A DNA stretch of 64,000 nucleotides from Candidatus Azobacteroides pseudotrichonymphae. Lineage in GTDB: Bacteria > Bacteroidota > Bacteroidia > Bacteroidales > Azobacteroidaceae. Of this stretch, positions 2,641 through 62,809 are shown piece by piece (position 1 is the first letter of the stretch; every line of letters starts with the position of its first letter). The notes below the pieces were generated by a model, which saw only the letters and a program-made list of their open reading frames with translations, had not been told where the DNA came from and ran no database searches. Location of the stretch: NCBI GenBank assembly GCA_002091395.1, contig AP017914.1, positions 62,001 through 126,000 on the forward strand, in the 5' to 3' direction. Position numbers and translations under genes: made by a program.

Positions 2641-3358
2641 CTAAGTTAATTAAATTAAGTATTTAGTATAAATAAATTTGTTTTAAATTTTGGTGATTTT
2701 TTATACTTGTATATCAATATTATAATAAAAAATTTATTAGTTGCTGTTGAAGTTTCAAAACGTTGTTGTTGCTGTTATATATTTTTTTAAAATCATATTT
2801 GATTGATATAGTATTAGTTTAATTTTTTCATTGCTTTTTATTTGAATTAATATTTTTAATGAAAGGTTTTTTGATTAAAGATTATGGTAATATTATTATT
2901 TTTTAATGAATTAAAAAATAATAATATTAAATAGCGTTATTTTGAATTAAAAAATGTGTATTTACTACCATATAGCTTTAATATTTATAAAAAGAGTTAT
3001 TTTACGTTTATTATTTTTTTTATAACTATTTTTTTTGAAAATAGCACATGCTAAAATGGGATCTTTATTGCTAATAAAATTGTAGATTATACTTTTAGTG
3101 TAGTAGTCTATTATAAATATGTGAATTTTAGCAAAATAGATTTTGATTAAAAAATAAATATTAATAGTAGTGAAATTGTTAATAGTATTATTACGATACT
3201 TCATTGTTATAATTAATCTTTTTTGAAGTAAAAATTGTATTTTTTACAGAAAAATATTAGATTGCGACTCTTTCATAATTTAATTAAAGTTCTTGCAGAT
3301 AGTAGAAATTTATTATTTATTTATTTTTAAGGATAATTTTACTTATTAGGTAGGGTTG
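2641..3358 (+). other. gene-poor AT-rich gap after the xylE remnant
   Basis: I see no convincing gene here. The stretch holds a long perfect inverted repeat at 2888-2929 and a minus-strand open frame at 2965-3204 whose product is mostly I/N/K/Y residues, as expected from base composition. The first part may contain the unrecognisable 3' end of the decayed xylE. Confidence 0.6.
2888..2929. repeat. perfect inverted repeat, 20-bp arms
   Basis: Arms 2888-2907 and 2910-2929 are exact reverse complements separated by 2 nt. The arms are entirely A/T. It lies about 250 bp past the last recognisable piece of the xylE remnant. It could be an old terminator of the xylose operon or simply one of the many palindromes in this window. 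There is no clean T-tract after the right arm. Confidence 0.8.
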
Positions 3359-3813
3359 ATGTTTACTGTTTTGTTTTTTATGTTATGTAGTATTTTAATA
3401 CTATTAGGTTTTTTTTTGTTCCGTGTACTACGTTTATTACTATTGCCTGCATGTTTTCTGTTGTATTTGGAATTTTTAGTGTGTTTACTTATTTAGAATT
3501 TAGATTGTTTGTGTTTATTTTTTGTTTGTTAATACTTGTTATTATTATTTTTATGATTTGTATGTTTAGATCTAAAATTTTTAATAAAATTGCTTTAAAC
3601 AGTAAGATTGATTCTACAGTAATTGATGAAAACATATTAAATATTTGTGAAGGCGATGAGGGAATATCTGTTTCCAGACTTAATCCAGTTGGAAAAGTAG
3701 AAGTAAACAATATGATTTTAGAGGGAAAATCATTAGGTAGATTTATCGATGAGGATACAAAAGTAATTGTTATAAAAGTAACTTCTACTCAACTAATTGT
3801 AAAAGTTAAATAA
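3359..3813 (+). CDS. NfeD-like membrane protein, reading frame split by a 9-T run
   Basis: NfeD proteins are small membrane proteins with an OB-fold tail that partner flotillin-like proteins. The open frame from ATG 3451 (120 residues) holds the last membrane helices and the OB-fold (EGDEGISVSRLNPVGKVEV, then GRFIDEDTKVIVI). The missing N-terminus is just upstream in another frame: ATG 3359 reads MFTVLFFMLCSILILLGFF up to a run of nine T's (3409-3417). One extra T joins it to VPCTTFITIACMFSVV, which resembles the family's V/I-P-G-T-T segment. The joined product would be about 151 residues, normal for short NfeD proteins. It is followed 23 bp later by floA, its standard partner. Either polymerase slippage at the T-run restores the frame, or the gene is inactive, or internal ATG 3451 is used. 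The Gly-to-Cys change in PGTT hints at relaxed constraint. Confidence 0.75.
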
Positions 3814-3836
3814 TTTTTAAGAATTGATAGAAAAAT

Positions 3837-4832
3837 ATGGAATTAACATTATTTATTTGGGCGTTATTTGTTATAGCAATTATTGTTTTATTATCTATTT
3901 TTTTATACTACGTTCCGTTTGTGCTTTGGATTACAGCAAAAGCATCAGGTGTAGATATTTCTCTTTTACAACTTTTTTTAATGCGATTGAGAAAAGTTCC
4001 ACCTGTTGTAATTGTAAATGCTATGATTGAAGCTCACAAGGCTGGATTAAAAAATATTGCAAGAGATCAGTTAGAAGCTCATTATTTAGCAGGAGGTCAT
4101 GTTGAACGAGTTGTTCATGCTTTAGTATCTGCAGAAAAAGCTAATATTGCTTTAATATTTCAAATGGCAACAGCGATTGATTTGGCTGGACGTGATGTAT
4201 TTCAAGCAGTACAAATGTCAGTTAATCCAAAAGTAATAGATACACCTCCAATTGCTGCAGTAGCAAAAAATGGTATTCAACTTTTAGTAAAAGCAAGAGT
4301 GACGGTACGTGCTAATATTAAACAATTAGTTGGAGGAGCTGGTGAAGAAACTGTAATTGCACGAGTTGGAGAAGGTATAATTGCTTCTATTGGAGCTTCA
4401 GAAACACATAAAGAAGTTTTAGAAACACCTGACGCAATATCTAAGGTAGTTTTAAAAAAAGGATTAGATGCTGGGACAGCATTTGAAATTTTGTCTATTG
4501 ATGTAGCAGATATTGATATAGGGAAAAATATTGGAGCAGAATTACAAATGGATCAATCGCAAGCAGATAAAAATATTGCACAAGCAAAAGCAGAAGAACG
4601 ACGTGCAATGGCTGTCGCTTTAGAACAAGAAATGAAAGCTAAAGCACAGGAGGCGCGTGCAAAAGTTATAGAAGCAGAAGCAGAAATTCCAAAAGCGATG
4701 GCAGAAGCATTTAGAAATGGAAATTTTGGTATTATGGATTATTATAAAATGAAAAATATTCAAGCTGATACTAATATGAGAGAAACTATTGCAAGACCGA
4801 AAAATCACGATAATTCAACGGATGTAAATTAA
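3837..4832 (+). CDS. floA: flotillin-like protein FloA
   Basis: Flotillin-like SPFH/band-7 membrane scaffold (formerly the YqfA/UPF0365 family) that forms membrane foci. The 331 residues match the usual length. An N-terminal hydrophobic segment (about residues 4-26) is followed by [21 protein letters not shown], the [17 protein letters not shown] segment and a C-terminal Ala/Glu-rich helical region ([20 protein letters not shown]) typical of the family. It lies directly after the NfeD-like gene, the conserved pairing. A hairpin with a T-tract about 140 bp downstream (4975-5004) could end the unit. No changes at conserved segments were noticed. Confidence 0.95.
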
Positions 4833-15308: not shown

Positions 15309-17126
15309 TCATTGAATTTGAAGAACTGGAAGAATAACTTGTCTATAATCATGATTTTTCCAAATGTTGAATAATTTTATTTGTTCATGGTTTTTTTCTT
15401 TCACTATAAAATATTTAGTTATTTTTTCATCAATTTTTTCAGTTGCTTTATTTAGGAAAACTGTAAGTATATCTTTTTTTTCAGGATATTTTACAATTTG
15501 ATAATTTTTTATGTTAGCTAGCCTTAAGGCTGTTAATATAGCTGTATTTATATCTCCTAATTCATCTATTAAGTTTAGTGATAAGGCTTGTTTGCCAGTC
15601 CATATATGTCCTTGAGCAAGTACATCAATTTGTTTTTTTGTTTTTTTTCGTCCTTCGGCAACACGTTTTAGAAACAGGTCATACCCTTTTTCTATATAAG
15701 ACTGCACCATAGCACTTTCTATAGTGTTTAAAGCTCTTGCTGGTAAAAGTCCTATTCCTAGTAATGGGATTGATAACATATCTCCTCCAAAATTTGAATG
15801 TAAGTTAGTTGACACATGATCGTGTGTTGCTCCAATAGTCTTTGCCAACTGCATGCCGTTAGGTATTAATCCGAAAATTCCTATGGATCCTGTTATTGTA
15901 GTTGGTTCAGCAATAATTTTATTCGCTATACAGGCGATATAATACCCTCCTGATGCAGCATAGTCCCCCATTGATACAACAACAGGTTTTACTTGTTTTA
16001 GAGATTTGATTGCATGCCAAATTTGTTCAGATGCATAAGCACTACCGCCATGAGAATTGATACGAAAAATTACAGCTTTAATAGTAGGATCTAGTTTTAA
16101 TTTTTTTAATTCTTTTATGTATTCTTTAGAATTAATGTAATTTTTCGAATAAAAAGTTGATGATGATTCATCTGGAATAATTTCACCTTCTGCGTATAAA
16201 ATAGCAATTTTGTCACATCCGGTGGTTTTTGTTGTCGTTGACTTAATTGCTAGATCTTTAGTACTTATGAAGTTTAGTTTGCAATTGTGTTTAGTTCCTA
16301 CTTTATGTTTTAATAAAAATTCTATTTCATCATCATATTTTAAACCATCAATTAGTTTGTAAGATACAATAGAATCAGGATCAGAAAAAGCCAAGCATTT
16401 GTCTGCATATTTGTTCAACTTATATATAGAAATTTTTCGGCTTTTAGATATACCTACTAATAATGTTGTCCAAATATCAGATAGAAGATTATATGTTTGG
16501 TTGCGATTAAAACTACTCATTTTGTTTGAAGTATAAGGTTCAACTGCAGATTTATAAATTCCAACTTTATAAATCTGCAGTTGAACGCCACATTTTTTTA
16601 GAATATTTTTATTATACTGAATAGATGTTGATAAACCGCGAAAATCAAACATTCCTATTGGATTCATATAAATCTCATCAGCAACTGAACTTATATAATA
16701 TGAATTGTGGTTGAAATTATCTCCGTAAGCAATAACAAATTTTTTAGTTTTTTTAAAATCTATTAAAGCTTCCCTAATAGATTCTAAACTTGCATATCCT
16801 GATTTTATTTGCCCTGCTTGAATATAAATGCCACTAATTTTTTTATTATTTTTTGCTTCTTTTATAGCGGCGAGAACAGTGTCAAGGTCTTGAGTTTCAA
16901 TTATTTCTTTGTTAAAGATTGAGAACATGAAATTTTTGTTTTCTCTGTCAACAATTGTTCCATTCAAATTTAATTTGAGTATACTTTCATTTTGTAAAGG
17001 ATAATAATGATTTTTGATATCAAAAGTGATATGTCCGATTATTATTATTGATAAAACAAACAAAATGATACATGCGATAATTACTCCAATGATAGAGGCT
17101 ATAATTGTTTTAATAAATTTTTTCAT
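15309..17126 (-). CDS. sppA: signal peptide peptidase SppA, 67K type
   Basis: Membrane-bound serine protease that degrades cleaved signal peptides. 605 residues, the long (tandem-domain) form. One N-terminal membrane helix (about residues 6-32). The catalytic Lys lies in KVGIYKSAVEP (near 193) and the nucleophile Ser in GDYAASGGYYIA (near 390); SHGGSAYASEQ precedes it. It starts at ATG 17126 on the minus strand. The exact segment around the catalytic Lys is built as a 21-bp-arm palindrome (16538-16586): VQLQIYK is encoded by the reverse complement of the codons for YKSAVEP. Otherwise the protein looks intact. Confidence 0.95.
   Translation of the reverse strand: MKKFIKTIIASIIGVIIACIILFVLSIIIIGHITFDIKNHYYPLQNESILKLNLNGTIVDRENKNFMFSIFNKEIIETQDLDTVLAAIKEAKNNKKISGIYIQAGQIKSGYASLESIREALIDFKKTKKFVIAYGDNFNHNSYYISSVADEIYMNPIGMFDFRGLSTSIQYNKNILKKCGVQLQIYKVGIYKSAVEPYTSNKMSSFNRNQTYNLLSDIWTTLLVGISKSRKISIYKLNKYADKCLAFSDPDSIVSYKLIDGLKYDDEIEFLLKHKVGTKHNCKLNFISTKDLAIKSTTTKTTGCDKIAILYAEGEIIPDESSSTFYSKNYINSKEYIKELKKLKLDPTIKAVIFRINSHGGSAYASEQIWHAIKSLKQVKPVVVSMGDYAASGGYYIACIANKIIAEPTTITGSIGIFGLIPNGMQLAKTIGATHDHVSTNLHSNFGGDMLSIPLLGIGLLPARALNTIESAMVQSYIEKGYDLFLKRVAEGRKKTKKQIDVLAQGHIWTGKQALSLNLIDELGDINTAILTALRLANIKNYQIVKYPEKKDILTVFLNKATEKIDEKITKYFIVKEKNHEQIKLFNIWKNHDYRQVILPVLQIQ
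16538..16586. repeat. intragenic perfect inverted repeat in sppA, 21-bp arms
   Basis: Arms 16538-16558 and 16566-16586 are exact reverse complements separated by 7 nt. The arms carry mixed bases (CAACTGCAGATT core), so this is not a low-complexity effect. The repeat covers the catalytic-lysine motif of SppA. Confidence 0.97.
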
Positions 17127-61988: not shown

Positions 61989-62809
61989 ATTGTTTGTATT
62001 TGATTATATAATTTTATTGTTTGAACAGCTTCTTTTACATCATGAACTCGAATAATATCAGCTCCTTGTGTCAATGCAAACATGTTTAATGCTGTTGTTC
62101 CGTTTAATGCTTTTTCAGTTGAAACTTTTATTATTTCACGTATCATTGTTTTTCGTGAAATGCCCACTACAATAGGCAAATTAAAGATACTAAATTGTTT
62201 TAGTTGACTTAAAATTTTATAATTTTGGTATGTAGTTTTACTAAACCCAAACCCAGGGTCTATCCAAATATCATATATTCCTCTATGATACAAATAATTA
62301 ATTTTTTCTTCAAAAAAAGATAAAATTTCAGATAACAAATCATTATACTTGGTGTACTTCATTGCTGTTTGTGGTGTTCCTCGCATATGCATGATAATAT
62401 AATGAACATGTAATTCAGTTATAATATTAGTCATTTTTGAGTCTAATTTACCAGCTGAAATATCATTTATAATAGAAATTGGGAATTTTTTTGCACACTC
62501 TTTTACTACTTTGGAACGAAAAGTATCAATTGAAACAATAGCATTAGGCATTTCTTGAAAAAGAAGTTCTAGTCCAAGTTGTACCCTATTTATTTCTTCT
62601 TTTTCACTAACGAATTCCGAATTAGGATGAGATGAATATCCTCCTATGTCAATAATGTCTGCTCTTTCTTTTTTTATTTGAATTATTCTTTTTATTATTT
62701 CTTGTTTAGTTTGCTTCCGACTTTTTGGGAAAAATGAATTTGGCGTAATATTTAGAATTGCCATAACTTTTTTCGTAACTATCTGTTTATCTATTTTATT
62801 TTGTATCAT
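61985..62809 (-). CDS. folP: dihydropteroate synthase
   Basis: Joins p-aminobenzoate and hydroxymethyl-dihydropterin diphosphate in folate synthesis. 274 residues: MAILNITPNSFF, VSIDTFRSKV, INDISAGKLD, IIMHMRGTP, WIDPGFGFSKT, VGISRKTM and the C-terminal IIRVHDVKEA. The loop normally reading STRPG/SSRPG is SSHPN here, so the usual Arg is replaced by His. It lies upstream of cdaA with a 4-bp overlap. Retention implies folate is made from imported or self-made precursors. Confidence 0.95.
   Translation of the reverse strand: MIQNKIDKQIVTKKVMAILNITPNSFFPKSRKQTKQEIIKRIIQIKKERADIIDIGGYSSHPNSEFVSEKEEINRVQLGLELLFQEMPNAIVSIDTFRSKVVKECAKKFPISIINDISAGKLDSKMTNIITELHVHYIIMHMRGTPQTAMKYTKYNDLLSEILSFFEEKINYLYHRGIYDIWIDPGFGFSKTTYQNYKILSQLKQFSIFNLPIVVGISRKTMIREIIKVSTEKALNGTTALNMFALTQGADIIRVHDVKEAVQTIKLYNQIQTI

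Follow-up and report, generated by a model that had tools for sequence, protein, structure and literature searches.

The nfeD gene of Candidatus Azobacteroides pseudotrichonymphae phylotype ProJPt-1 is divided between two reading frames that meet at a run of nine T's (T9). There is, in our judgement, about an even chance that the gene is still used, with its membrane anchor relaxed and its frame restored at T9 by +1 slippage or, alternatively, by a −1 ribosomal shift. The two halves of the protein have evolved unequally, a feature that the earlier note on this DNA overlooked, and nfeD fits neither the picture of an ordinary pseudogene nor that of an intact gene bearing a typing error. ProJPt-1 lives inside cells of Pseudotrichonympha, a gut protist of the termite Prorhinotermes japonicus (PMC5478533); its genome comprises 1,016,909 bases in seven contigs (chromosome 1, 774,998 bases; chromosome 2, 139,924 bases). 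The analyzed stretch, the 64-kb window, covers contig positions 62001–126000 of chromosome 2, and coordinates below refer to it unless stated otherwise. The nearest relative compared is CfPt1-2 (chromosome of 1,114,206 bases). T9 per se is not rare: overlapping 9-mers of T or A number 765 on 1.017 Mb, and the window holds 16 runs of at least nine.

The adjacent frames described in the earlier note do meet at nine T's (Table 1). Codons of frame A are read from 3350 and stay open over 3350–3493, up to a stop at 3494–3496, with TTG 3356 and ATG 3359 as candidate starts; the ancestral start Met has been lost, and GTA at 3350 stands in its place. Frame B is open from 3391 through 3813. By open reading frames alone, the junction may lie anywhere within 3391–3493; homology places it between L19 (frame A, ending at 3406) and P25 (frame B, 3421), hence, in effect, at T9. 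The step from A to B is −1; therefore, the frames are joined by one T added in the RNA, as was claimed before, and equally by a −1 ribosomal shift or by the loss of two T's. With ten T's, nfeD aligns to its relatives without gaps (GFFFVP vs. EIFLIP), and SILILL of frame A followed by VP..TF of frame B aligns gap-free to SVLILLEIFLIPGITF of CfPt1-2 given one extra T; in the alignments to CfPt1-2 and the relatives, neither frame can be followed past T9. The gene is a single open frame in 19 genus relatives, and CfPt1-2, the nearest genome compared, reads GAAATTTTTCTTATTCCA at this position, without a long run; no sister strain with nine or ten T's was found. Hence, T9 arose through AT drift in the ProJPt-1 lineage and is one base short. 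The lesion is a single indel in an A/T run of at least nine bases, as expected under slippage rescue.

Table 1. Features of the nfeD–floA region (window coordinates).
Feature	Position	Strand	Evidence
nfeD N-terminal frame (frame A), first membrane stretch	3356..3415	+	frame, alignment
Run of nine T's, frame junction; in-phase U UUU UUU at 3409–3415	3409..3417	+	alignment with relatives
Remaining nfeD (frame B): membrane stretches two and three, then C-terminal domain	3415..3813	+	frame, alignment
Earliest in-frame ATG of frame B; as a candidate internal start it would give 120 aa	3451..3453	+	frame
PF01957 NfeD partner-binding (OB-fold) domain, purifying selection	3649..3804	+	profile match, dN/dS
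floA, intact flotillin-like partner gene	3837..4832	+	dN/dS 0.08 vs. CfPt1-2

The C-terminal half, encoded in frame B, matches PF01957 (E-value 6.6e-8; 33.1 bits vs. the cut-off of 29.1). The joined protein was aligned with 88 relatives, and columns with conservation >80% were considered conserved; residues 74–154 retain all such columns (15/15), and residues 1–73 only 3 of 14. Relative to CfPt1-2 (Nei–Gojobori), the C half has a dN/dS ratio of 0.27, and the membrane half one of 0.97. The mean identity of the C half to the genus is 0.56, other members showing 0.55–0.71, while the membrane half falls to 0.21, with 0.52–0.64 in every other member. Purifying selection on the C half is evident from these comparisons; dN/dS and residue conservation rule out a simple pseudogene here. 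An ordinary pseudogene would be neutral along its whole length and carry several lesions, whereas nfeD has one lesion, a joined frame free of stops, and a constrained C half. Only one NfeD was found in the genome, that is, no second intact copy, and no solved structure matching by sequence was found.

The downstream floA is unbroken, in agreement with the earlier note; it starts 23 bases past the end of nfeD, likely in one operon, and the nfeD–floA order is common to CfPt1-2 and other genus members. The suggestion that the unit is used is supported for floA and for the C half of NfeD, as judged by their dN/dS. The first 30 codons of floA (3837–3926), which encode its membrane segment, have a dN/dS of 0.48 vs. 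0.08 for the whole gene; perhaps this segment drifts jointly with the membrane half of NfeD.

The 11 conserved positions lost from the membrane half include the invariant Glu (E20 replaced by Gly), the Gly of the PG motif (G26 replaced by Cys), and the start Met. The N-terminal membrane segments thus lack the Glu and the PG motif that are conserved in relatives, while hydrophobicity is kept. For comparison we took 159 strongly hydrophobic 70-residue windows from 27 genes (GRAVY >1 in both genomes); the identity of the nfeD membrane half to CfPt1-2, 0.36, is below all of them (minimum 0.40, median 0.70). Yet the joined membrane half has 73 codons without a stop and a GRAVY of 2.44 vs. 2.01 in CfPt1-2. 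We also simulated neutral drift from the CfPt1-2 sequence until the divergence equalled that observed (t = 0.6), taking base composition from either neighboring intergenic DNA or local third positions; CfPt1-2 here is a stand-in for the ancestor, and indels are left out. Stops are absent from the joined frame in 2–4% of runs; A's at codon position 2 are as few as observed in <0.1% of runs; and simulated drift lowers or keeps GRAVY, whereas in nfeD it rose. Hence, fully neutral decay of the membrane half is disfavored by the simulations, although dN/dS of 0.97 alone would suggest neutrality. The signal of kept hydrophobicity is strong at residues 35–73 and weak at residues 4–22 and 23–34. At residues 4–34, which flank T9, differences from CfPt1-2 (unpolarised) affect 4 of 31 second codon positions vs. 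29 of 62 first and third positions (p = 0.001); polarised changes before Met35 are few, 12/4/5 by codon position. Since specific residues are lost and the hydrophobic character is kept, the natural reading is that the membrane half would be a hydrophobic anchor under a relaxed, composition-only constraint. The frameshift may be recent and most of the drift older, and selection acting up to the break could account for the same traces. A truly dead gene, a sugar-transporter remnant that resembles the MFS type and carries two in-frame stops, occupies 2219–2530 of the plus strand about 0.8 kb upstream of nfeD, between it and a xylose-isomerase-like ORF at 150–1472; the remnant shows 37% identity to a CfPt1-2 ORF (E-value 2e-12).

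Similar lesions occur elsewhere in the genome. When 658 kb sampled from ProJPt-1 was surveyed by tblastn against ORFs from 740 kb of CfPt1-2, 334 orthologous ORFs were covered, and two true frame breaks besides nfeD emerged, in ispH and coaBC; the reverse search revealed no homopolymer frame break in 332 CfPt1-2 ORFs. The count is a lower bound, as the nfeD break itself was missed by tblastn because its membrane half is so diverged. An apparent frameshift in uvrA is a false match from the overlapping folD reading frame. The ispH and coaBC breaks each fall exactly at a run of ten A's, each one base short, and each gene is the sole copy in the genome. In ispH (chromosome 1, A10 near 304015; 3704–4566 of the sampled stretch), the halves are 64 and 59% identical to CfPt1-2; in coaBC (chromosome 1, A10 near 16427; 15903–17080 of the sampled stretch), 76 and 72%. 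IspH is split within its single catalytic domain, with conserved cysteines, which we take to be cluster ligands, on both sides; ispG of the same pathway is intact. The coaBC break falls between the CoaC and CoaB domains, and the CoaB half has no ATG, GTG, or TTG ahead of its first, nucleotide-binding motif. About 60 other A/T runs of at least ten in conserved genes sit in intact matches.

No degradation is seen beside the ispH and coaBC breaks, unlike in nfeD, where dN/dS differs between the halves; these two genes are better slippage candidates than nfeD. At the same time, genes broken in the same way make the rescue of nfeD more plausible: given the same lesion in sole copies with conserved flanks, interruption at a homopolymer does not by itself mark a ProJPt-1 gene as dead. 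Each of the three breaks lacks a base, a pattern consistent with a filter that would pass only those lesions that +1 slippage mends.

We suggest that nfeD lies in two frames because GGT TTT TTT (T)TT GTT, the codons at the break, is one T short compared with the relatives, and that purifying selection on the FloA-binding C-terminal domain indicates a gene in use, whose membrane half would now be needed only as an anchor. Full-length NfeD would most likely come from a minority of transcripts that gain one U at T9 through RNA polymerase slippage, or else from ribosomes slipping by −1 on these U's, with an identical protein as the outcome. The claim of the earlier note that slippage at T9 yields a full-length protein is possible, and ispH and coaBC raise its plausibility, but NfeD made in this way would be abnormal, given the 11/14 conserved membrane residues lost and GTA in place of the start Met. 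Nine T's are also at the lower end of the run lengths known to slip. A wider proposal, to which we give slightly less than an even chance, is that CoA (coaBC), isoprenoids (ispH), and the flotillin partner (nfeD) are made only via routine +1 slippage at A10, A10, and T9, respectively, so that essential metabolism would rely on the infidelity of polymerase or ribosome.

Two alternatives had been left aside in the earlier note, −1 frameshifting on the in-phase U UUU UUU, which leads to the same product, and internal initiation at ATG 3451. Under the latter, a shorter NfeD, which retains the OB domain preceded by the final membrane stretch, is made on the floA transcript from this ATG or from a later Met near 3555–3566, and T9 is irrelevant. 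The available start in frame B, the lost ancestral Met, selection on the C half next to a membrane half free of sequence constraint, and a hydrophobicity signal that is strongest past residue 35 agree with it; we nevertheless consider it rather unlikely, as the region before Met35 is no more eroded than the region after it, encodes an uninterrupted hydrophobic sequence in the correct frame both before and after T9, and has changed least at codon position 2, and ATG 3451 itself sits within the second hydrophobic stretch.

It is likewise improbable, though compatible with the already relaxed membrane half, with real decay nearby (the sugar-transporter remnant), and with a single lesion without other breaks, also typical of a young pseudogene, that a recent deletion of one T inactivated nfeD as the first step of its loss, the conservation of the C half being a memory of past selection; the identical one-base lesion in the sole ispH and coaBC copies, both flanks of which are conserved, speaks against this. 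An assembly error or a within-population polymorphism, with ten T's as the true or commoner allele, seems highly improbable. In its favor are the proneness of homopolymers to error, the amplification of the DNA from the symbionts of a single protist cell, and a missing base in each of the three breaks; however, the genome was sequenced from PCR-free MiSeq libraries at 192–250x and verified with PacBio reads (PMC5478533), and some 60 other A/T runs of at least ten in conserved genes sit in intact matches. Coverage of about 192x for chromosome 2 makes a plain sequencing error at T9 unlikely. We prefer continued use of nfeD with the frame restored at T9.

In comparison with known systems, −1 programmed ribosomal frameshifting shares with nfeD the −1 step and an in-phase slippery heptamer (GGU UUU UUU at 3407–3415). 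Here, however, the frame arrangement is not conserved, as follows from the single-frame genus relatives and the lack of a T run in CfPt1-2, and no stimulating downstream RNA structure was found, 3416–3500 folding no better than its shuffles (z = −0.01). Like NfeD–FloA (SPFH5) operons (PMC2636767; Staphylococcus aureus, PMC11222466), the locus has nfeD directly before floA, a PF01957 OB-fold, and hydrophobic N-terminal stretches; unlike them, it has nfeD in two frames and lacks the Glu and the PG motif of the membrane half. In S. aureus, NfeD binds FloA through its OB domain and is directed to microdomains by its membrane part (PMC11222466); these roles fit a retained OB domain and a drifted membrane part. 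If the rescue is real, the uneven drift of nfeD would also reveal what a flotillin needs, a cytosolic OB domain on any hydrophobic anchor.

Rescue of genes in AT-rich endosymbionts by homopolymer slippage, which the earlier note called known, is indeed documented: in Buchnera and Blochmannia, genes frameshifted at poly(A/T) runs are rescued by transcriptional slippage (PMC5009743, PMC3017870). Slippage in bacteria occurs at runs of nine A or T, and 12–50% of transcripts of frameshifted endosymbiont genes are corrected at long poly(A) runs (PMC5009743). Among transcription insertions in Buchnera, +1 in A/T runs predominate, and a survey there saw no reading frame restored (PMC5574713). In the literature, we found no transcriptome paper bearing on mixed-length transcripts. 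Like these cases, nfeD belongs to an AT-rich endosymbiont and has a one-base indel in an A/T run of at least nine with the remaining frame open; ispH and coaBC fit the Buchnera and Blochmannia rescue at the sequence level. The differences are that ProJPt-1 belongs to Bacteroidota and has a protist host and that nfeD has drifted strongly on one side of the break. Since two essential genes are split like nfeD, the cell may have to rely on slips in copying for their expression. The phenomenon would thus be of a known kind in a new lineage: demonstrated cases of slippage rescue so far come from a few gammaproteobacterial endosymbionts of insects, and, if real here, the rescue would have originated independently in another phylum, in a bacterium living inside a protist, and would involve essential-type genes without a second copy.
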